From the NCBI GenBank assembly GCA_937981575.1, contig CALJNR010000047.1, forward strand, positions 1-34,971: a stretch of DNA of 34,971 nt, given 5' to 3'. The notes under the pieces are model-generated. The model saw nothing but the letters and a program-made list of their open reading frames with translations. It did no database searches and had not been told where the DNA came from. The stretch's first letter is position 1. Each line of letters opens with the position of its first letter. The position numbers and the translations under genes were made by a program. Shown here in pieces: positions 246-34,797 of the stretch. This stretch comes from an uncultured Clostridia bacterium (GTDB lineage: Bacteria > Bacillota > Clostridia > Lachnospirales > Cellulosilyticaceae).

Positions 246-298
246 CTCATTGACGTTATATTGGTATTATTATATAATACCAATATAACGTCAATGAG
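246..298. repeat. 53-bp palindrome, 25-bp perfect arms
   Basis: Arms 246-270 and 274-298 are exact inverse complements around a 3-base centre. No T-run follows on either side, so a classical terminator is unlikely. The inner part has TTGGTATTA and TAATACCAA half sites, resembling operators of GntR-type regulators. It lies 120 bases before the activase start, so an operator for the regulator at 3704 is plausible. The arms are far longer than an operator needs, so a cruciform or small repeat element is an alternative. Confidence 0.6.
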
Positions 299-419
299 TA
301 ATTCTAATAGCTAGGCAGTTTGAGGAACGCTTAGTTTAAATAAATCTCAATGATACTGCGATTTCTCTAGAGCTATGCCATTAATGCATAACAATGAGTT
401 AAGAAGGGGGGAACAGCTG

Positions 420-1289
420 TTGGAACTAAAGGTTTTTCAAAAAGGGTTTAATTATTCGCAGGACGGAGACGGAAACCGACTTGTTTATCACCTTCAGGGC
501 TGTAATATACATTGCCCTTGGTGTGCTAATCCTGAAGGCATTGCAATAGACGGGATATTAATGGTGCAGAAGGATTATCTTATAGATGCGATTTGCCCAC
601 TTGGTGCTATTACTCATAAAGCGCTGAACAGACAGCTGTGCAAAACATGCCTTACCTATGACTGTGTGCAAAAGCATAGAACAAAAGGGATCAGACGCTC
701 ATATGAAACATATTCAGTTGATGAGCTTGTGGAGGAAGCTAAGCGAAGTGAAATACTTTTTTATGATGGCGGCGGGGTGACCCTCAGCGGCGGGGAGGCA
801 ACTGTTCAGTTCGAAGGAGTAAAAATGCTCCTTAGCAAGCTTAAAGCAAAAGGGATTCATACAGCTATTGAAACGAATGGAACCCATTCCAACCTTTCGG
901 AACTTTTTGGTGTCATTGACTTACTGATGATAGACTTTAAACATTATGATGATAATATGCATCAAAAGGTGACGGGAATATCTAATAAGATTATCATTCG
1001 AAATATAGAAAAGGCTCTTAATAATCACCCAAGAGTACATATACGCGTTCCGCTTATTGGAGGGTTTAATACGGACGAAAAAGATGCCGCAGGGTTTGCA
1101 GCTTTCTTCAAAAAGTATTCAAGCCAAAAGGCTGTGTTTGAATTTCTGCCTTATCACGAATATGGCAAAGCCAAGTGGGAGCAGTGCGGCTTAAATTATA
1201 AAGTCACAAACGGGGCCGTTGATGAAGGCACTATAGCTTTGTTTGAACACCTATTTATAGCAAACAACCTATCTGTTATTCACACTTAA
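420..1289 (+). CDS. Glycyl radical enzyme activating enzyme (radical SAM)
   Basis: This [4Fe-4S]/SAM enzyme should abstract a hydrogen from the catalytic glycine of the GRE encoded next door. The radical SAM cysteines are C28, C32 and C35 in GCNIHCPWC. TLSGGEATVQ is the SAM-binding GGE-type motif, and MIDFKHYD is a conserved activase motif further on. Between them C59, C74, C77 and C82 form a reduced ferredoxin-like insert able to hold about one auxiliary cluster, against two in glycerol-dehydratase activases. I chose the TTG at 420 because AAGGGGGG lies about 10 bases upstream and family homology begins at LKVFQKGF. In-frame ATGs at 375 and 384 lack an RBS. The GRE gene follows after 14 bases. 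Confidence 0.9.
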   Translation: MELKVFQKGFNYSQDGDGNRLVYHLQGCNIHCPWCANPEGIAIDGILMVQKDYLIDAICPLGAITHKALNRQLCKTCLTYDCVQKHRTKGIRRSYETYSVDELVEEAKRSEILFYDGGGVTLSGGEATVQFEGVKMLLSKLKAKGIHTAIETNGTHSNLSELFGVIDLLMIDFKHYDDNMHQKVTGISNKIIIRNIEKALNNHPRVHIRVPLIGGFNTDEKDAAGFAAFFKKYSSQKAVFEFLPYHEYGKAKWEQCGLNYKVTNGAVDEGTIALFEHLFIANNLSVIHT

Positions 1290-1303
1290 AGGAGGAGATA
1301 AAA

Positions 1304-3691
1304 ATGAGTATAGAAGTGCTTTATAGTGCAGAGGAGCTGCACAAGATGGCTTTGGAACTTTTTAAGGAAGAACGAGGCAGTGACAGGCTGGACGGTTGGT
1401 TTATTGCAAAAGAAATTGCCAGGGAATGTGATGAAAAATACAGTCATTTACCACCTAGCTTAAAAGCAGCAAGTACCCTTAAGGAGATTGTCAGCAGTAT
1501 ACCGCTTAGCATTTCAGAACATGCTGTTTTTGCCGGTACACAAAGAGATGCTTTTGCCAGGTCCTATGCACTGATTAACCCTTCATTTAAGGTTGATTCG
1601 TTTACAGGTTACTGCAATCCTGCAGGTGTTTTTGATGATATTCTGCCAAATGAAACGATTACGAAAGAACGTATTGAAAAACTTCGTACCTATACAGAGG
1701 AAACACCTTATGTTCAAAAATTAAAGACTGTTTACAAAGAAATAGAAACACGTACATCAGAAGCCCTCTTTTTCGTTGAGCAGGTGACAGGCCATGTTGT
1801 GCCTGACTTTAGAGCAGTGCTTAGGGATGGGATAGAAGGGCTTAGAACAAAGATTGCTGATAAACTTAAAAGAGAGTCAGATCCCGATAAAACACATTAT
1901 TATAAAGCGATGGAGATGACTTTGGATGCTGCTTTCATATTGGCAGACCGCTATAAGAAGCTTGCAAGAAATCAGCAAAAAACGGCAAGCCCCAGCAGAA
2001 AGGTGCAGCTCATCTTCATAGAAGAAACGTTGCATCATGTCCCTTGTAAAGGGGCGCGGAATCTTCATGAAGCTATCCAAATGTTTATGCTGTTATGGCA
2101 GGTCATGTGCCTTGAACAGTCCCCTAACCCCTTTGCGTTTTCAGTAGGCAATGCGGATAGAATTTTTGAACCTTATCGCATGCAGGAACATCTAAATCGT
2201 GAACTGAGTGCAGCACTTTTTAAGCATTTTTTAGTATTTTTCAATGTAGGAGACAGAAGCTGGGCTATTTCTCAAAATATCATGGTCGGCGGACGGGGAT
2301 ATAACGGCAGTGACCTGACAAGTGAGTCAACCTATGCACTTTTAGATGCCTTTTATGAGCTTAATCTTCCGCAGCCTATTTTATCTGTAAAACTCCATAG
2401 CAAAACACCGGATGCTCTATATAGAGCTTTGGGCAAGTTTTTCTTTACGGAAGGCATGCTTACCCCATCTATTTTTAATGATGACTCGCTTTTTAAAGTA
2501 CTTGAAAAGGCTGGAGTTGATCAAAGCGACCTTGAAGACTATGGCATAGCAGGATGCCAGGAGCCGCTTATTATGGGCAAAGATAATGGGAATACAACAA
2601 ACAGCTGGCTGAATCTAGGAAAGATCCTGGAACTGGCACTTAATGATGGCGTTTCTTTACTTACTAAAAGAAAGATCGGGGTAAGCCGCAAAGAAATAAA
2701 TGCAGCATATGATGATCCTAAAGAAGTGCTTGCCCACATCAGAGAAATATTTTATCAGCATCTGGATATTTATATGGAGGAAATGGTACAAGCTGCCAAT
2801 GAAGCGTGTAAGGCCCTTTCGCTTTTACCAGTTCCTTTTTTATCTCTGTTTATGGGAGGGATTGAAAGCGGCGTGGATATGCGGGATACGCATAGGCAGG
2901 GAACCAAGTATAATGGGAGCGGGTGCCTTATTCATGGACTTTCAGTCACAGCAGATGCTTTTGCAGCCATTGATTGTCTCCTAAGAGAAAGACCGGAGGA
3001 CGCTGAACACTTAGCGGAGCTGCTGCGTACAAACTTTGAGCAGGATGAAATACTTTGGCAGTATCTGCAGAGCTGTCCGAAGTATGGCAACAATATTGAC
3101 AGCGTAGATGAAGAGATAAAGAATCTTGCAATAGAAGTATGCCGCAGAGTTAAGGATAAAAAAAACTATTTAGGCAATGCGTTCAGACCGGATTTTAGCA
3201 CCCCGTCTACTCATCTTCTCTATGGTTACTGGGGAGGAGCAACGCCAGACGGCAGAAAGGCACGAGAAATGCTGGGGTATGGAATAGATCCATTATATGG
3301 AGCAGCTGAGATGGGACTAGGCTTTAGAATGCTTTCTGCTATGAAACTTCCCTATGAAGTAATGAACGGCGGCTATGCATCTCACTTTGGGATTAATCCT
3401 GGTTATTTTTCAGGCAAGACGGTTGAAGATAAGGGACTTGAGTTTAAAAATAAAGTTGTAAAACCTCTTTTTTTCAATGAAAAACACCAGGGGGCAGCGC
3501 CATTTTATCTTTACGTTAATGTAACGACTCCAGAAATTTTGCGCAAGGTTTTAGAAGATCCTAAAAGATACGCCCCTAGCGGTGTTTATATCATGCGCAT
3601 CCATGGAACATTTGTAAATTTCCTTGACTTATCTCTTGAAATTCAACAAGATATAATCAAAAGGCTTGATCTAAAGTCTACAACGTTTTAG
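1304..3691 (+). CDS. Glycyl radical enzyme, eliminase/dehydratase-like, substrate unknown
   Basis: A 795-residue member of the pyruvate formate-lyase/dehydratase superfamily. The PFL-like barrel spans about residues 30-640 and the glycine-radical domain about 670-790. The thiyl-radical Cys is C418 in GCQEP, followed at +2 by E420, the general-base position of 1,2-eliminating GREs, which usually read GCVEP. PFL itself has two adjacent cysteines, so this is not PFL. The glycyl radical residue is G768 in RIHGTFVNF, where most families have R-V-(S/A)-G-Y/F. The RBS AAGGAGGAG lies 7 bases before ATG. Neighbours (activase, sugar-type regulator, sedoheptulokinase-like kinase) point to a carbohydrate or polyol substrate. 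Family assignment is secure; the reaction is inference. Confidence 0.9.
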   Translation: MSIEVLYSAEELHKMALELFKEERGSDRLDGWFIAKEIARECDEKYSHLPPSLKAASTLKEIVSSIPLSISEHAVFAGTQRDAFARSYALINPSFKVDSFTGYCNPAGVFDDILPNETITKERIEKLRTYTEETPYVQKLKTVYKEIETRTSEALFFVEQVTGHVVPDFRAVLRDGIEGLRTKIADKLKRESDPDKTHYYKAMEMTLDAAFILADRYKKLARNQQKTASPSRKVQLIFIEETLHHVPCKGARNLHEAIQMFMLLWQVMCLEQSPNPFAFSVGNADRIFEPYRMQEHLNRELSAALFKHFLVFFNVGDRSWAISQNIMVGGRGYNGSDLTSESTYALLDAFYELNLPQPILSVKLHSKTPDALYRALGKFFFTEGMLTPSIFNDDSLFKVLEKAGVDQSDLEDYGIAGCQEPLIMGKDNGNTTNSWLNLGKILELALNDGVSLLTKRKIGVSRKEINAAYDDPKEVLAHIREIFYQHLDIYMEEMVQAANEACKALSLLPVPFLSLFMGGIESGVDMRDTHRQGTKYNGSGCLIHGLSVTADAFAAIDCLLRERPEDAEHLAELLRTNFEQDEILWQYLQSCPKYGNNIDSVDEEIKNLAIEVCRRVKDKKNYLGNAFRPDFSTPSTHLLYGYWGGATPDGRKAREMLGYGIDPLYGAAEMGLGFRMLSAMKLPYEVMNGGYASHFGINPGYFSGKTVEDKGLEFKNKVVKPLFFNEKHQGAAPFYLYVNVTTPEILRKVLEDPKRYAPSGVYIMRIHGTFVNFLDLSLEIQQDIIKRLDLKSTTF

Positions 3692-3703
3692 AAGGAGTTC
3701 ATG

Positions 3704-4735
3704 ATGGAAAATGACAGACTTTATTTATCACTTAAAAACAGGCTGTGTGCGATGATTTACACAGGTATTTATAAAGAGGGGGAGAATATTCCACCGGAGC
3801 GGGTACTGGCAGAGCGTTTAGAGCTAAGCAGGGTAACTGTGCGTAAAGCCCTGGATTTGCTTGAGAAGGACCAAATTATTGAGAGAGTACAGGGAAGTGG
3901 GACCCAAATTAAGTTGAGAAAAAAGGGCTATAGGGGCAACTTAGATCTTATAGCCCTTGTGGCACCAGCTCAAAACCCCTTTTTTGCAGCTTTTATTGAT
4001 TCTTTTCAAAAAGAAGCCAATCAGCATGATTCATTAGTGCTTTTTATGCAAAATCCAGCTGAAGAAAGAATAGAAGACAGTCTTTTTAAGCTGTTCCAAA
4101 AAAACATACGTAATGTAGTCATATGGCTGGAAAGCCTGCAGATTGATAAAGAAAAAATCAGAAGGCTCCGAGGTCTGGGGATGAATATTGTCTTTTTTGA
4201 TATTAGTGTTCCTTCACCGTATGGTGACTGTGTGGCGCTTGATAATGAAGATGCAGTGGATGCGCTTTACAAGTTTGTTAAGGAGCAGGGAATCCATAAA
4301 ATTTACTATATTGGATGGGACAATCACAACCTCTCAAGTGTCAGAGAAAGAGAAGAAACTTATAAAAAACTTAGTCAAAATAAATATCACATATTTCATA
4401 TGAACTGGGATAATAAAGGAAGGCTGACGGAATCAATCGAACAGTTTATTAGTGTTTGTGGTTTCAAAGATGACACGCAGCAAGCCGTCATATGCGGTGA
4501 TGGCGAGCTGGGCATTGCGCTTAAGAAAGCGCTCATTATGCAGAGGCTTGAAGGCATAACTGTAGTATCAGTAGATGATTATCCTGAAGCAAAAGAACTG
4601 GGACTAAGTGTTTACAAGCAATGCTTTCCAAAACTTGCGAAACAGGTATATTGCTGCCTTGCAGAGCAAAATAATGGAGATGCGGATTGGAAAGCTTTGG
4701 TTTATAAAGTTAAAGGAGAATTCATAAGGCGGTGA
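3704..4735 (+). CDS. GntR/LacI-type (AraR-like) transcriptional regulator
   Basis: An N-terminal GntR winged helix-turn-helix (about residues 1-70, with the PPERVLAERLELSRVTVRKA recognition region) is fused to a LacI/periplasmic-binding-protein-like sensor domain (about 78-343). The latter starts LIALVAPAQNPFFAAFIDSF and contains FFDISVPSPYGDCVALDN and VVSVDDYPEA. This architecture, as in AraR, usually gives sugar-responsive repressors. GAAGGAG at 3691-3697 overlaps the GRE stop codon. Two ATGs follow at 3701 and 3704, and the second has the better spacing. The gene sits inside the GRE operon, so local control is likely. The 53-bp palindrome at 246-298 is a candidate target. The effector is unknown, perhaps the GRE substrate or its phosphate. 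Confidence 0.88.
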   Translation: MENDRLYLSLKNRLCAMIYTGIYKEGENIPPERVLAERLELSRVTVRKALDLLEKDQIIERVQGSGTQIKLRKKGYRGNLDLIALVAPAQNPFFAAFIDSFQKEANQHDSLVLFMQNPAEERIEDSLFKLFQKNIRNVVIWLESLQIDKEKIRRLRGLGMNIVFFDISVPSPYGDCVALDNEDAVDALYKFVKEQGIHKIYYIGWDNHNLSSVREREETYKKLSQNKYHIFHMNWDNKGRLTESIEQFISVCGFKDDTQQAVICGDGELGIALKKALIMQRLEGITVVSVDDYPEAKELGLSVYKQCFPKLAKQVYCCLAEQNNGDADWKALVYKVKGEFIRR

Positions 4736-4738
4736 AAA

Positions 4739-6127
4739 ATGGATAAAAAGCTATCGCTGGGAATAGATATTGGAACGACAACCCTTTGTATGCTGCTTTT
4801 AGATGGGGAAAATGGAGAACTTCTAGAGACTATTACACAGCAGAATGAAGCATTCATAAAAGGAAAAGCATCTTTTGAAAAGCTGCAGGATGTTTCTGTT
4901 ATTGAGGCGCAGGTTAATGATATGCTGATGGGGATTTTGAAAAAATATCCTGTCATTTCATGCATTGGCGTAACAGGTCAGATGCATGGAATTGTTTATA
5001 TCGATGAAAAAGGGCAGGCGGTAAGTCCTCTTTATACGTGGCAGGATGAAAGGGGTAATTTACTCTATAAAAACGGCTTAAGCTATGCAGCCTATTTGGG
5101 AGAGATAGCCGGTTATAAGCTTTCAACAGGTTTTGGAGCTGTAACGCATTTTTATAATCAGGCAAATCAGCTGATTCCAAGTACAGCTAAATATTTATGT
5201 ACGGTTATGGACTATATAGCAATGCGCCTTGCAGGTGAAAAAGCTCCCCTTATGCATCCGTCAAATGCTGCCAGCATTGGAGCATTTGATCTCAAAAAGA
5301 ACCAATTTGATCTTGCCGCATTAGAAAAAGCGGGAATAGATGTTTCTTTCTTTCCAAAATTATTGGAAGATAGGGCAGTACATGAAAAAAATAAGAATGG
5401 TCAGATTGTTGCAGCTGCTATTGGAGATAACCAGGCAAGTTTTATAGGTTCTGTTAAAGGCGGGGGCCTAGGACTCCTTGTTAATATTGGTACGTCTAGT
5501 CAAGTTTCTGTTTATACGTCATGTTTCGAAGAAGTTCCAGGATTGGAGACACGGCCCCTTATCAATAAAAGTTTTATTTTAGTGGGATCTCCTTTATGCG
5601 GGGGACGAGCTTATGCCCTTTTAGAAGCCTTCTTTAGAGAAATTGCAGAACTTGTGACTGAGCAAGAACTTCCGAAGCTTTATCCGCTAATGGCCCGCCT
5701 AACAGAGGGATTTTCGGAAATAACAGATCCACTGGAAATCTTGCCGCAGTTCTCAGGAACCCGGGAGCAGCCAGACTTAAGAGGAGAAATTAGAAATATA
5801 AGTACTGAAAACTTTACAGCAAAGCATTTTGCCATAGGCATGCTGCAAGGAATAGCACGGGAAGTTTATGACCTTTATCTAGCGGCTAAGCCTTATTTAA
5901 AAGAACGCCCAGTTCGGCTGATAGGATCAGGGAATGCTGTAAGGATGAATAAAGCTTTGCAGCAGATGATTTTCAAGCTTTTTGACATTCCCTTATGTAT
6001 TCCAGTCCATAAGGAAGAAGCAAGCTATGGCGCAGCACTGTTCGCACTCATTGAGGCAGGTTTTTTTAGTACATTAGAAGAAGCTCAAAAGCTTATTAGA
6101 TATACTTGTGATTTAGATCAGACCTAG
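4739..6127 (+). CDS. FGGY carbohydrate kinase, sedoheptulokinase-like
   Basis: A 462-residue FGGY kinase expected to phosphorylate a sugar or polyol with ATP. The N-terminal phosphate motif is GIDIGTTT (8-15). GQMHG (80-84), then TWQDERG and a later STGFGAVTHFY stretch, resemble sedoheptulokinase (SHPK) more than xylulokinase or glycerol kinase. D230 in IGDNQAS fits the catalytic Asp of the family. LVNIGTSSQVSVY and LIGSGNAVRMNKALQQ are the C-domain nucleotide motifs. ATG starts 3 bases after the regulator stop, indicating translational coupling. The SHPK likeness is my pattern reading. A ketose (possibly heptulose) substrate is inference; xylulose or ribulose remain possible. Confidence 0.87.
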   Translation: MDKKLSLGIDIGTTTLCMLLLDGENGELLETITQQNEAFIKGKASFEKLQDVSVIEAQVNDMLMGILKKYPVISCIGVTGQMHGIVYIDEKGQAVSPLYTWQDERGNLLYKNGLSYAAYLGEIAGYKLSTGFGAVTHFYNQANQLIPSTAKYLCTVMDYIAMRLAGEKAPLMHPSNAASIGAFDLKKNQFDLAALEKAGIDVSFFPKLLEDRAVHEKNKNGQIVAAAIGDNQASFIGSVKGGGLGLLVNIGTSSQVSVYTSCFEEVPGLETRPLINKSFILVGSPLCGGRAYALLEAFFREIAELVTEQELPKLYPLMARLTEGFSEITDPLEILPQFSGTREQPDLRGEIRNISTENFTAKHFAIGMLQGIAREVYDLYLAAKPYLKERPVRLIGSGNAVRMNKALQQMIFKLFDIPLCIPVHKEEASYGAALFALIEAGFFSTLEEAQKLIRYTCDLDQT

Positions 6128-6315
6128 ACTATCAAGGGAGTAGTTTGATTCTATAAGCAGTGGCAATAGGAATTATAAATAAGTGTCATAAAATACCCAG
6201 CCTAAACAGTGATTAGGTCACAGTTAAATATAAATACCATGAGTATAATAAAGATGCAGCTAGATTAAGTAACGAACTTAGCGGCGGCAAATTTATTAAT
6301 ACTTGAGGTGATAGT

Positions 6316-6906
6316 GTGAATAACAATATGTTTAGCAATCTTAAAAACAACAAGTTTTTATTTTTAGTAACATTAGCTTATTTTATTTTAGGATTTATCA
6401 CTATACATTTTGCTCTTCTAGGTATTTTATGTATGATACTGCCCTTTGTCCTATTATTTAAAAACCAACGAAAAACTTGGTGTCAGGGGTATTGCCCAAG
6501 AGCGAACCTTTATACCAGAACAGGAAAATTTACATCCAAGTATTCTATGAAAACACCAAAGTTTTTTGTTAAAGGCTATATGAAGTGGATTATTTTCGGC
6601 TATTTTGTGCTTAGCTTGTTTTTTATTACAATGACAACAGTTAAAGTTGCAGCAGGGGATGTTGCGCCTATGAATTATCTAAGATTTTTAATTGTTTTTC
6701 CGCTGCCAAAAGCTATGCCGCAGCTATTCAGTTACGGAGGAGCTGCGCCATGGATAACGCATCTTGCTTATCGGTTTTACTCAATGATGATGACAACCAC
6801 TCTGCTGGGACTAGGCCTTGCTCTCATTTATAAGCCAAGAACGTGGTGCACAATTTGTCCGATTGCAACACTTTCAGATGGGTATATTAAAAAGGCGAAA
6901 GGATAG
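6316..6906 (+). CDS. Membrane 4Fe-4S protein (NapH/Fer4_5-like)
   Basis: A 196-residue integral membrane protein. Hydrophobic spans lie near 14-48, 88-108, 115-140 and 153-172. Two CX(2-3)CP motifs, WCQGYCPR (C56, C60) and WCTICP (C178, C181), are of the kind seen in NapH/NosR/YccM-type membrane polyferredoxins, though the usual soluble ferredoxin domain is absent. It probably holds a cluster or passes electrons at the membrane. The start is GTG, with GAGGTG 5 bases upstream. It lies 188 bases after the kinase with no terminator seen between, so read-through from the GRE operon is possible, but a functional link is unproven. Confidence 0.7.
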   Translation: MNNNMFSNLKNNKFLFLVTLAYFILGFITIHFALLGILCMILPFVLLFKNQRKTWCQGYCPRANLYTRTGKFTSKYSMKTPKFFVKGYMKWIIFGYFVLSLFFITMTTVKVAAGDVAPMNYLRFLIVFPLPKAMPQLFSYGGAAPWITHLAYRFYSMMMTTTLLGLGLALIYKPRTWCTICPIATLSDGYIKKAKG

Positions 6907-7062: not shown

Positions 7063-8145
7063 ATGGCAAAATTATATGGCAGGGAAATGTCAAAACAGGA
7101 GCTGCTGAAAAAGGTAGGAAACATGGCTCAGGTAGCTTCAATCACGCCTTATGAAATGAGCGAAGGTAGAGCGAGGGGCATCAAAGCCTTTGATGTTTCA
7201 GCAGGAGAAATGAGTTTTACAGTGCTTGAGAGCAAATGTCTGGATCTATTAAATATGAAATATAAAGGCATCAACCTAGGCTTCTTGTCTAAGCCGGGAC
7301 TTGCTGCGCCGGAATATTTTAACCCTATTGCAGGGGAGTTTTTACGTTATTTCCAAGGGGGTATGCTTTATACCTGCGGGCTTTCCAATATAGGCGTTCC
7401 TTGTGTAGATGAAGGGGAAGACCATAGTCTTCATGGCCGAATTGCCCATACGCCCGCTGAAAAGGTAAGTGTATTTTCAGCTTGGGACGGAGAAGATTAT
7501 GTGATGAAAATATCCGGAGAAATGAGAGAAGCGGCACACTTTAAAGAAAATTTAGTCCTCAAAAGAGAGATTGAAACAAAGTTAGGTGCAAAGTATGTGA
7601 GGATTCGAGATGTGGTTGTTAATGAAGGACAGGAAGAACAGCCCGTTATGCTTTTATATCATTTCAATTTTGGGTATCCGCTTTTAGATGAAGGGACAAG
7701 GATCATTGTCCCACAAAATAAAATCCTGCCTAGAACAGAAATAGCTAAGGAAAATATCACTGAGTTTGAAAAAATAAGCGGACCTATCGATCAGTTTAAA
7801 GAGCATGTTTTTTATATCGAAAGTGCATCGAATGAAAAGGGAGACACTTATGCAGCACTTATTAATGATCAATTAGGCCTTGGGGTGTATGTCAAATATA
7901 ATCTATCTGAGCTCCCTATTTTGGTTGAATGGAAATCGATGGCCTCTGGAGATTACGCCTTAGGCTTAGAACCAGGAACCCATTACTTAGAGGGCAGAGA
8001 TGAGGAAAGAAAAAAAGGAACGCTTAAGACTTTAGCCCCTTTTGGGCAATTAACTTTTAATTTGGAAATCGGCGTATTAGATGGTAAAAATGAGATTGAT
8101 ATGTTTGTGAGGAAGTTGGAGAAATTAAGGAACTTAAATAAGTAA
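7063..8145 (+). CDS. DUF4432 aldose 1-epimerase-like protein
   Basis: A 360-residue protein of the galactose-mutarotase-like beta-sandwich superfamily, DUF4432 branch. Recognisable parts are LESKCLDLLNMKYKGINLG, HSLHGRIAHTPAE (likely sugar-site histidines), LYHFNFGYPLLDEGTR and near the C-terminus LGLEPGTHYLEGRDEERKKG. Members are found beside sugar-catabolic genes and are thought to interconvert anomers or bind acyclic-prone sugars. Few are characterised. AAGGAGG (7047-7053) lies 9 bases before ATG. Proximity to the GRE/kinase genes suggests a role in presenting the same sugar, which is an inference. Confidence 0.8.
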   Translation: MAKLYGREMSKQELLKKVGNMAQVASITPYEMSEGRARGIKAFDVSAGEMSFTVLESKCLDLLNMKYKGINLGFLSKPGLAAPEYFNPIAGEFLRYFQGGMLYTCGLSNIGVPCVDEGEDHSLHGRIAHTPAEKVSVFSAWDGEDYVMKISGEMREAAHFKENLVLKREIETKLGAKYVRIRDVVVNEGQEEQPVMLLYHFNFGYPLLDEGTRIIVPQNKILPRTEIAKENITEFEKISGPIDQFKEHVFYIESASNEKGDTYAALINDQLGLGVYVKYNLSELPILVEWKSMASGDYALGLEPGTHYLEGRDEERKKGTLKTLAPFGQLTFNLEIGVLDGKNEIDMFVRKLEKLRNLNK

Positions 8146-32360: not shown

Positions 32361-32688
32361 AAGAAGTAATCAGAAAAGTTCTTTAGTCTTTACAAAGTAA
32401 TTTGAAAAAGATTAAAGAACTTTTTGAGTTTATGAAATGAAACAGCAAGTATAAATATTGGAATTAATTAGGTTATAAGGATTTTTTTACATGGATAATT
32501 GATAAACTGAGAATAATTAAATTTAAGATAAAACAGAAGAATATGCTCAGAAAGGCTTAATTTTAGGGATGTGCAGTTATGTCACTTATAGCAATTGCCA
32601 TAACTCTTTTTCTTTAACTTTACTTAGCAGGGCATATACCTCTATACTCAAAGTACAACAGTTGTTCAACAAAGAGAGGTTGTTGAGA
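32361..32688 (+). other. Intergenic region before mtlR
   Basis: After the terminator (32374-32425) this is AT-rich leader. Several weak TTGATA/TATAAA-like matches exist but none is convincing as a promoter. An in-frame extension of mtlR reaches 32569 without an RBS or conserved residues. Confidence 0.4.
32374..32425 (+). terminator. Terminator of the UPF0016 gene
   Basis: 32374-32390 pairs with 32408-32424 (17 bp, one G-U), 17-base loop, with a T5 run at the end of the 3' arm. Confidence 0.75.
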
Positions 32689-34797
32689 ATGAAGTTAACT
32701 TCACGAATTAAAAAAATAATATCCCTTTTGTTAGAGGAAACCAATTATATAACGGTTCAGCTTGTAGCTGAAAAAACTGATATAAGTTCAAGAACGGTCA
32801 TTCGTGAACTTACGTTAGTAGAAAATTGGCTGAGTGAAAAAGGTATATTATTGGAAAAGAAAAAAGGGACAGGAATCAGACTAAACTTAGATTCTGCCGA
32901 AAGAGAAAGACTAAAAGAATCTCTCAGAGAAGAAAAAGCAGACCTTATTTATTCACCAGAGCAAAGACTAGTAATGCTTAAAGCAGAGCTGCTCAAAAAA
33001 GTTGAAATTACAAAACTATATACTTTAACAAGACTCTTTGGCGTGACGGAAGGAACGATAAGTGCTGACCTGGATAAGCTGGAAGATTGGCTTTTAAAGT
33101 ACCATTTGCTTCTTAATAGAAAGCCAGGACTTGGCATCTATATTGAAGGAGATGAAATGTCTTTTAGAAGTGCTATTATTTCGCTTATTTATGAGCAGTT
33201 TCATGAGGCAGATCTCATCAATCTTATTATTAACAAAGAAAAAACAGTAGATCAGCTGAGTCTGATCCAAAATAACATTCATAAGGTCATCCTGGACTTT
33301 GTAGATATGAGCAGTATTGATTTAGGCAAAAATCTTCTTGCTTATATCGAAGACAATATGGGCTATCAAATAGCAGATAATTCTTTTGTAGCACTTATTA
33401 TAAGACTTAGTGTAACGATGAAAAGATGTGAACAAGGTATTTATATTAAAGAGATACCAGAACAAAGAACAGCAGCCAAAAACGAAAAGATATTTTCTTT
33501 AGTTAAAGACTGGTTTTTAGTTCACAAAGCCTTTCTTACTTACGAAATACCAGAAGATGAACTTTTTTATCTTTCGATTCATATTCGGGGGGCTAAGCTT
33601 AGAGAGACTCTTTCTTATAATCAAATTTCTATGACGGAAGATTATAAAACGATCAAGCTTGCAAAAGAAATTATCTATACAGCTGAAAAAGAAACCGGGA
33701 TTTATTTAGAAGATAATGAAAAATTGTTGATAGGCCTTGTAAGACATTTAAGACCGGCTATTTACAGAATGAAGATGCATTTAGACATTATGAATCCTCT
33801 GCTTGAAGATATTAAGCAAATGTATCCCAAACTCTTTGAGGCTACACGAAAATGTGCGCAGGTTATTGAAAAGAAAGAGAACGTGCAGGTTCCAGAAGAT
33901 GAAATAGCTTATTTAGCAACACATATTGGTGCAGCCATCAAAAATGAAAGGCGCAATGTACGTAAAGTGTACCGCGCAGTAGTAGCCTGTACAAATGGCA
34001 TCGGAGCTTCGCAGCTATTAGTTACAGAAATTGAAAAAGAATTTCCAAGCATAAAGGTAGTAGATGTTATATCAACCATTGATATAAAGACCCTTAAGTT
34101 AGCTGAAAACGATGTTGATTTGGTTGTTTCTACAGTTCCTATTCCTAGTTGCGATCTTCCTACTATAGTGGTTAATACCATTTTAGGAAAAAAAGATAAA
34201 GAAAAAATAAAGAACGTTCTGGAAAGTGTTTTAACAGAAGATACTTCTGATAAAAAAATCAAAACCATCCATTTTAGAGAAAAACTCAAAGCCTTAAAAC
34301 TGTATAGTGATTTAATGCTTCAACTTATGGATAACTTTTCGGTTATCGACAACGTACAGCTGCAAAATGTTGATGAACTGATTCAGTTTGCAAGCTCAAG
34401 AGTTGCAAAAACAAAAGAGAGCCGAACTGAACTTGAACATGCATTTAAAGACAGGGAAGAAAAAGGCTCAACGATTCTAGGCAAAAAGGGGATGATGCTT
34501 CTGCACTGCAGATCCAGTGCGGTCAGCGAACTTTATGTGATAATCATAAGGCTTAGTGGAATGATTCATATTCATAATACAAGAGGCGAATTATCAGAAG
34601 TCGATATGATCATTGTTATGGTTGCACCACTGGAGATTACAACCCATGCTTTAGAAATTTTAAGTGAAATTACCAGAAAAATTATCACAAGTGATTTTGC
34701 AGTAACTTTAAAAAATGGTACAAGAGAAGAAGTTTATATGGGAATAAGCACTATTTTAGATCAATTTATTCAAAACACAGCAATAATTTCAAAATAA
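32689..34797 (+). CDS. mtlR: PTS-regulated transcriptional activator MtlR
   Basis: A 702-residue BglG/MtlR-type activator. Domains in order: two helix-turn-helix modules (about 1-150; VQLVAEKTDISSRTVIREL and TRLFGVTEGTISADL), PRD1 (about 190-275), PRD2 (about 300-410, HLRPAIYRMKMH), an EIIB-like domain with phospho-acceptor C434 in ACTNGIGASQ, and a C-terminal EIIA-like domain with H606 in LLHCRSSAVSE. Phosphorylation by HPr and EIIA/EIIB of the mannitol PTS sets its activity. ATG 32689 lies 9 bases after AGAGAGG. The gene directly downstream encodes a mannitol PTS permease, confirming the assignment. Confidence 0.92.
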   Translation: MKLTSRIKKIISLLLEETNYITVQLVAEKTDISSRTVIRELTLVENWLSEKGILLEKKKGTGIRLNLDSAERERLKESLREEKADLIYSPEQRLVMLKAELLKKVEITKLYTLTRLFGVTEGTISADLDKLEDWLLKYHLLLNRKPGLGIYIEGDEMSFRSAIISLIYEQFHEADLINLIINKEKTVDQLSLIQNNIHKVILDFVDMSSIDLGKNLLAYIEDNMGYQIADNSFVALIIRLSVTMKRCEQGIYIKEIPEQRTAAKNEKIFSLVKDWFLVHKAFLTYEIPEDELFYLSIHIRGAKLRETLSYNQISMTEDYKTIKLAKEIIYTAEKETGIYLEDNEKLLIGLVRHLRPAIYRMKMHLDIMNPLLEDIKQMYPKLFEATRKCAQVIEKKENVQVPEDEIAYLATHIGAAIKNERRNVRKVYRAVVACTNGIGASQLLVTEIEKEFPSIKVVDVISTIDIKTLKLAENDVDLVVSTVPIPSCDLPTIVVNTILGKKDKEKIKNVLESVLTEDTSDKKIKTIHFREKLKALKLYSDLMLQLMDNFSVIDNVQLQNVDELIQFASSRVAKTKESRTELEHAFKDREEKGSTILGKKGMMLLHCRSSAVSELYVIIIRLSGMIHIHNTRGELSEVDMIIVMVAPLEITTHALEILSEITRKIITSDFAVTLKNGTREEVYMGISTILDQFIQNTAIISK

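Follow-up and report, generated by a model that had tools for sequence, protein, structure and literature searches.

A conserved operon pairs a predicted deep-branching PFL-like radical enzyme with an FGGY sugar kinase in an uncultured Clostridia bacterium and its relatives

The closest known sugar-acting glycyl radical enzymes (GREs) that we found are YbiW and PflD, which the accessible part of PMC12441222 describes as cleaving the 6-phosphates of 1,5-anhydroglucitol and 1,5-anhydromannitol to 1-deoxyfructose 6-phosphate, after a phosphotransferase system (PTS) has phosphorylated the substrate. Two PDB entries (8id7 and 8id0) name YbiW and PflD with 1,5-anhydrohexitol 6-phosphates in their titles, and in Escherichia coli K-12 fsaA lies near ybiW, and fsaB and gldA lie near pflD. 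Here, we describe an operon in a 34,971-nucleotide stretch (the window) that is a complete contig (CALJNR010000047.1) of the 3.56 Mb draft genome of an uncultured Clostridia bacterium (GCA_937981575.1). It encodes a radical S-adenosylmethionine (SAM) activase, a PFL-like GRE, a regulator, and an FGGY sugar kinase. As with YbiW and PflD, a GRE and its activase would serve sugar catabolism, the catalytic Cys and Glu are kept, and the end point would be a sugar phosphate. YbiW and PflD, however, have a canonical glycyl loop and a PTS that acts before the GRE, whereas the window has the loop RIHGT and a dedicated FGGY kinase. Both enzymes were missing from the list of known GRE clusters against which an earlier note, made from this DNA alone, had set the operon.

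The activase, GRE, regulator, and kinase genes form one operon. The contiguous four-gene set described in the earlier note is confirmed as four open reading frames (ORFs) on the plus strand, with gaps of 14, 9, and 3 bases, whose products belong to the expected families by domain scan (Table 1). The activase scores 204.6 bits against the GRE-activating protein model TIGR02494 (cut-off 174.35), also matches the Radical_SAM domain, and carries its CxxxCxxC motif as CNIHCPWC; its TTG start is preceded by a GGGGGG stretch and gives a protein of 289 amino acids (aa), the size of the activase in the related locus L022. The GRE scores 356.6 bits against PF02901 (PFL-like; threshold 24.3), the regulator 59.1 bits against PF00392 and 24.3 bits against PF00532 (threshold 22.2), and both FGGY_N and FGGY_C are present in the kinase. 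The same gene set was found in relatives whose GREs are 56–71% identical to that of the window and, because it recurs, it is not a chance arrangement.

The GRE–kinase module is real and conserved. Matches to the window GRE (E up to 1e-120; in the family draw, E up to 1e-150) occur in 14/391 genomes of a class draw, 7/392 of an order draw, 4/24 of a family draw, and 1/398 of a phylum draw, the last being the window's own genome; 8/95 genomes in the order of genome G260 have one, as do 3/4, 2/16, 3/20, 1/6, and 3/11 in smaller draws. Given these low counts, the GRE is scattered rather than common. All draws together comprise 26 distinct GRE loci. A radical SAM activase gene adjoins the GRE in 24 of them, and the contigs of the other two (L035 and L037) start inside the GRE. 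In 22/26 loci, a member of the window kinase's family follows zero to two genes downstream of the GRE. As for the remaining four, two end at the GRE (L036 and L045; the genome of L036 has a member of the kinase family on another contig), and two have xylulokinase-type kinases, which exceed the cut-off of TIGR01312 (380.25): that of L039 (460.7 bits) overlaps the GRE stop, and that of L038 (399.3 bits) lies about 5 kb upstream, with none adjacent. The kinase pairing proposed in the earlier note therefore extends to the relatives, which do not consistently lack a neighbouring kinase. In the class draw, the kinase family is present in 14/14 genomes with the GRE and in 21/377 others (p 1e-16); as the kinase profile derives from the kinases of GRE loci and so favours GRE genomes, 21/377 is if anything low. 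Protein searches gave the same picture, with 17/63 kinase contigs of at least 9 kb identical in size to a listed GRE contig versus 0.07 expected after jitter.

Judged from its sequence, the GRE is a deep branch of PFL-like radical enzymes outside the characterised subfamilies tested, as the earlier note had supposed; neither the tree nor NCBIfam nor the PDB placed it within one of them. Ten NCBIfam models match it, none at its cut-off (best scores 249.6 of 678.2 for the subfamily model TIGR01774 and 198 of 1100 for NF043068, the hydroxyproline dehydratase equivalog), and choline, hydroxyproline, sulfopropanediol, arylacetate, and PFL functions were ruled out on this ground. Its best PDB match is the glycerol dehydratase 1r8w (218.7 bits with the single sequence, 278.5 with a profile), against which YbiW, for comparison, scores 551 bits. 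In a tree of 12 family members and 11 reference GREs (those retrievable with annotation or from the same genomes, a subset of the superfamily), the family forms one side of a branch with support 100/100, its stem measuring 5.3 changes per column, and it does not cluster with YbiW or PflD; the forks between the family and the other GREs are weak and the branches long. Identity is 58–76% among the 12 members and 21–26% between the window GRE and the 11 references (YbiW 21.0%, PflD 23.6%, a propanediol-type GRE 25.5%), and YbiW shares 34–53% with five of the other references. The homologue list holds at least 120 proteins at 61% identity or more, the window's own included, and the closest named homologue among the matches listed is that of Cellulosilyticum sp. 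I15G10I2 (71%), which makes the host a probable relative of this genus. The structure model of the GRE has a weak core (mean pLDDT 72.2; residues 416–418 and 766–795 below 50), and we therefore claim no pocket geometry.

The glycyl loop sets the family apart. The GCQEP and RIHGT motifs reported in the earlier note are both present in the translation; GCQEP occurs in 120/120 listed homologues, and so does the loop R[IV]HGTF, window included. RVXG[FWY] is the fingerprint used to find GREs in the accessible part of PMC11528403, and the window GRE does not match it. Because of this, we class the protein among the PFL-like radical enzymes, with a loop that is non-canonical, and not among the typical GREs. 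A stricter loop pattern missed 4/11 references, and the looser R[VIT]xG[YF] was used instead; it is present in 11/11 reference GREs and 0/12 family members, in which the loop comes after a 3-residue insertion. Likewise, PF01228 (Gly_radical) was not found in 3/3 family members at E up to 10, and it is present in 6/6 other GREs (108–128 bits in 4/4 references and 96 bits in two divergent GREs of the same genome). The aminoacyl radical enzymes, as far as they are described in the accessible part of PMC11528403, are also PFL-like enzymes that break the GRE fingerprint, but their radical glycine is replaced by Ala, Ser, or Thr. The family described here keeps Gly768, with the neighbours changed (V to I, x to H, and the aromatic residue to T). 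Both Gly768, which aligns with the radical glycine, and Cys418, which aligns with the thiyl cysteine, are invariant in 23/23 sequences. If this assignment is right, a deep branch escapes both Pfam Gly_radical (in the 3/3 tried) and the published fingerprint, which would change the criteria for a functional glycyl radical site.

For the kinase, we infer a fructose-like ketose as substrate, because 6/20 loci in which its relatives occur without this GRE have GH32 or GH172 genes next to it. In four of these, all from one bacterial family (f47), GH172/DUF2961 and SGNH genes adjoin the kinase (by BLAST, one confirmed with Pfam), and in two GH32 genes do (Pfam). GH32 enzymes are known for the release of fructose, and alpha-fructofuranosides or arabinofuranosides are the substrates of GH172 members. 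A third GH32-like kinase context (L096) was seen by eye only. The earlier note had read the operon as a ketoheptose pathway with a sedoheptulokinase. Several sources do name the family so (sedoheptulokinase or FGGY kinase in most cases), and a transaldolase-type gene stands beside the kinase in L033 and L041, but the heptulose is not supported and draws mainly on that name, and we regard such a pathway as very improbable: the name is a database annotation, which we rejected as proof of a heptulose, the informative GRE-less contexts are fructosidase-type, a xylulokinase-type kinase replaces the kinase in L039, and the best NCBIfam score is that for xylulokinase (TIGR01312), at 109.7 of 380.25 and thus below cut-off. 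VIA-align and a profile search picked out no single FGGY specificity, and no sedoheptulokinase chain was among those listed, which excludes nothing. With the FGGY xylulokinases (TIGR01312; PDB 5vm1) the window kinase shares the fold and the GQMHG motif, also found in the L039 kinase, and a true TIGR01312 member takes its place in L039; what separates it from them is its low score and its 21% identity to 5vm1.

We tentatively favour, with somewhat less than even confidence, a two-step reading: radical C–O cleavage would turn a free substrate of sugar origin into a fructose-like ketose, which the FGGY kinase would then phosphorylate for entry into glycolysis. Cleavage to a fructose-like ketose is suggested because GRE-less kinases lie beside GH32 or GH172 genes and one GRE is accompanied by a xylulokinase-type kinase. 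The radical step would come first and act on the free compound, since the kinase gene linked to the GRE is of the ketose type and a domain scan of the first eight ORFs of the window found no PTS domain. The activase would form the radical on Gly768, Cys418 would relay it to the substrate, and Glu420 and His164 would act as base and acid in the elimination, as has been proposed for Glu and His in GRE dehydratases; the Cys, the Glu, and the His are kept in all 12 aligned members, which favours such chemistry. By analogy with YbiW and PflD, a specific candidate would be a 1,5-anhydrohexitol, most likely 1,5-anhydromannitol, opened to 1-deoxyfructose and then phosphorylated at position 6, although this particular assignment is doubtful. 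If right, the reading gives a concrete two-enzyme pathway and a new route into sugar metabolism. More generally, and again only tentatively, the RIHGTF branch, scattered but recurrent among clostridial radical enzymes and missed by fingerprint-based screens, may subject a free sugar to a new radical reaction (such as ring opening, epimerisation, or release of an intact hexose) and pass the product to an FGGY kinase, an undescribed anaerobic entry of sugars. No such GRE–kinase operon appears among the titles and abstract beginnings listed in the literature searches, a coverage that leaves out most subscription papers and does not show absence in print.

The order of the two steps could also be reversed: in place of a PTS, the FGGY kinase would phosphorylate a 1,5-anhydrohexitol or a polyol, whose 6-phosphate would then be the substrate of the GRE. 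YbiW and PflD do act after phosphorylation, the first eight ORFs lack a PTS domain, and the FGGY family includes polyol kinases. We nevertheless consider this order unlikely, as the GH32 and GH172 genes beside GRE-less kinases point to a ketose substrate and a xylulokinase-type kinase can replace the kinase.

Several observations weigh against C–O cleavage to a fructose-like ketose, or against its 1,5-anhydrohexitol version. Of six functional residues of the glycerol and diol dehydratases, the Cys, the Glu (Glu420), and His164 are retained in 12/12 aligned members, but the other three are changed in 12/12 (H281 to F/Y, S282 to A, and D447 to T). With H281, S282, and D447 replaced, even a dehydratase-type reaction is not assured, and the family has neither the residue set nor the fingerprint of the glycerol and 1,2-propanediol dehydratase GREs (PDB 1r8w, 5i2a, and 9rco); the first eight ORFs of the window also hold no microcompartment domain. 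The window GRE is no closer to YbiW or PflD than to the propanediol-type GRE, and in 14/20 GRE-less kinase loci no fructosidase neighbourhood of the kinase was confirmed. A YbiW-like GRE (52.9% identity to YbiW) is encoded in the same genome, and 1,5-anhydroglucitol may therefore already be served. The window operon has no gene for fructose-6-phosphate aldolase (FSA); elsewhere, the TalC of L033 and L041 is transaldolase-type and the aldolase of the L047 cluster FSA-type. Finally, a divergent isomerase resembling mannose-6-phosphate isomerase (PMI-like) has no evident role on a 1-deoxyketose, and it is a frequent partner of the GRE. By eye, the pocket had seemed to resemble that of YbiW at two positions, a likeness we dropped; the alignment contradicts the one at D447, which is Gly in YbiW.

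That isomerase could point to a different kind of chemistry. When partner genes were counted within 6 kb of the GRE in the 26 loci, by BLAST to one reference each, the PMI-like gene was found in 13/26 GRE loci versus 0/19 GRE-less kinase loci (p 1.6e-4); the two isomerases tested score 76.7 and 83.0 bits, below the mannose-6-phosphate isomerase cut-off of 116.2. A radical step other than elimination (epimerisation, decarboxylation of a sugar acid, or release of the sugar as a leaving group) could deliver an intact manno- or lyxo-configured aldose, which the PMI-like enzyme or a D-lyxose isomerase would turn into the ketose. This accounts for the isomerase better than C–O cleavage does, and it is in keeping with the D-lyxose isomerase family genes in L035 and L046, the transaldolase-type TalC gene that separates the GRE and kinase genes of L033 and L041, the mutarotase-type genes in four loci, and four additional invariant residues of the GRE (Cys104, Cys269, Arg318, and Arg628 in 23/23). 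We know of no GRE epimerase or sugar-acid decarboxylase, however; Glu and His are retained as in the eliminases, and the window has no PMI-like gene near its GRE, so that we rate this explanation as improbable.

Dehydration of a linear polyol (a hexitol or pentitol) to a 1-deoxyketose, 3-deoxyketose, or 2-deoxyaldose, which the kinase would phosphorylate and an FSA- or DeoC-type aldolase would split, is rather unlikely. It fits the retained Cys, Glu, and His164, the DeoC gene adjoining the activase in L038 (TIGR00126, 252.1 bits; cut-off 117.3), the mannitol PTS IIC gene near the GRE operon in L022, and a cluster in L040/L047 that has an FSA-type aldolase and, by eye, polyol-type Zn-dehydrogenases and a short-chain dehydrogenase. 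Yet DeoC and the FSA-type gene each occur at 1/26 loci, no polyol dehydrogenase lies within the operon, and H281 and D447 are replaced. Residue identities weaken an FSA-type aldolase step further: at the positions that correspond to FsaA Gln59 and Tyr131, which tell FSA from transaldolase, the TalC encoded within the operons of L033 and L041 carries Glu and Phe, although the TalC of L033 passes the FSA model TIGR00875 (297.3; cut-off 245.95).

Upstream of the operon, C–O cleavage or not, lies a likely control element. A perfect 25-base inverted repeat, with the core TTGGTATTATTATATAATACCAA at 261–283, overlaps a promoter-like TTGACG-N17-TATAAT at 250–278. The core TTGGTAT-N9-ATACCAA is found upstream of the operon in 5/5 GRE loci that have the GntR/LacI-type regulator gene (perfect in the window, L022, L023, and L039; one mismatch in L040), two of the other four belonging to another bacterial family, and in 0/21 GRE loci without this regulator, of which L035 and L037 lack upstream DNA (p 1.5e-5); about 1.05 Mb of partly overlapping records contain no further copy. 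A promoter scan alone performed at chance level. All five loci have a hexamer starting with TTG 17 bases before TATAAT (L022 and L023 were read off the sequence, and L040 is a weak match). We predict that the palindrome is the operator of the operon's own regulator, which would repress the operon until the sugar appears. The AraR-like domain layout of the regulator and a palindrome over a promoter-like site are shared with AraR-type GntR/LacI regulators; the difference is that this operon has its own palindrome, TTGGTATTAT-N-ATATAATACCAA. The earlier note expected such a regulator next to the GRE: one is usually nearby, but its type varies, and GntR/LacI accounts for only 5/26 loci versus 9 with ROK and 6 with AraC genes. 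GH38 and DUF4432 genes are present in three loci each. The L040/L047 cluster, besides its FSA-type aldolase, has two psicose 3-epimerases and RpiB and, by eye, a ribose-type ABC transporter. Most partner genes (PMI-like isomerase, D-lyxose isomerase family, GH38, and psicose 3-epimerase among them) fit sugars around fructose and mannose, as far as their annotation goes, in keeping with a fructose-like ketose as the substrate of the kinase. Taken with the relatives of the kinase and the predicted operator, the isomerase found as a partner would narrow the substrate to fructose- or mannose-like sugars or to anhydro or deoxy forms of these.

Table 1. Predicted features of the operon and its surroundings in the window.
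Feature	Position	Strand	Basis
Radical SAM GRE activase	420..1289 from TTG (289 aa) or 375..1289 from ATG (304 aa)	+	PF04055; TIGR02494
PFL-like radical enzyme (GRE), 795 aa	1304..3691	+	PF02901; predicted thiyl Cys418 in GCQEP
Glycyl loop RIHGTF, R765-F770, Gly768 = predicted radical site	3596..3613	+	Alignment
Regulator with GntR-type DNA-binding domain and LacI/periplasmic-binding-type sensor, 344 aa	3701..4735	+	PF00392; PF00532
FGGY kinase of 462 aa, predicted to act on a fructose-like ketose	4739..6127	+	FGGY_N and FGGY_C
DUF4432 aldose-epimerase-like protein	7063..8145	+	PF14486
Promoter-like site with the operator predicted for the regulator encoded in the operon	246..298	.	Perfect 25-base inverted repeat and TTGACG-N17-TATAAT

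The set thus reaches past the range given in the earlier note, upstream to the palindrome and promoter-like site and downstream to the DUF4432 gene. The DUF4432 protein scores 327.7 bits against PF14486, its gene lies directly 3' of the kinase in the two closest relatives (L022 and L023; 77–78% identity), and it is likely an accessory protein, a sugar mutarotase. Three plasmid contexts of DUF4432 relatives showed only generic sugar operons. Between the kinase and the DUF4432 gene, the window encodes a 196-aa membrane-type protein (6316–6906) with one CxxxC and one CxxC set, which has no Pfam or NCBIfam match and is not found at the corresponding place in L022 and L023. A second perfect inverted repeat, with 19-base arms and an 11-base loop, lies near the contig start (62–110). 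At the other end (32569–34797) is a PRD/EIIA-type antiterminator that resembles, by eye, the one at 3–3263 of L022, which stands beside the mannitol PTS IIC gene behind the GRE operon.

Among the relatives, 14/24 activases have only 233–242 aa versus 289–304 aa for the window type, and the family may therefore use activases with and without an extra insert. In L043, two radical enzymes lie in tandem: immediately ahead of the family GRE come a second activase–GRE pair (2527–6579; GRE of 736 aa, 23% identity) as well as a hydrolase of the GH88 type. In L038 and L040 the GRE operon lies near genes that resemble murB, rapZ, and whiA by eye.

The window's genome encodes further GREs. Next to the YbiW-like one (L110, 6947–9358) lie genes for a divergent activase and, judged by eye, for a DeoR-type regulator, and the 17 kb around it gave no BLAST match to FsaA or FrwC. 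An unrelated GRE (L111, G000:C54:53000-67000), 22% identical to that of the window, and its activase have as neighbours another FGGY kinase (TIGR01312, 316.5 of 380.25), two ABC permeases, two Zn-dehydrogenases (partly by eye), and a ureidoglycolate-lyase-like protein; by its gene content, this is another GRE–FGGY pairing. A third (L112, G000:C131) is surrounded by genes for a NanE-type epimerase, a ROK kinase, a Gfo/Idh/MocA oxidoreductase, and a true mannose-6-phosphate isomerase (200.3 bits; cut-off 116.2), which, going by these annotations, is again a GRE with a sugar kinase and a PMI. We also observed that PDB entry 8iof gives benzylsuccinate synthase alpha subunit as its molecule name and N-methyl-cis-4-hydroxy-D-proline dehydratase in its title; the molecule name is misleading.

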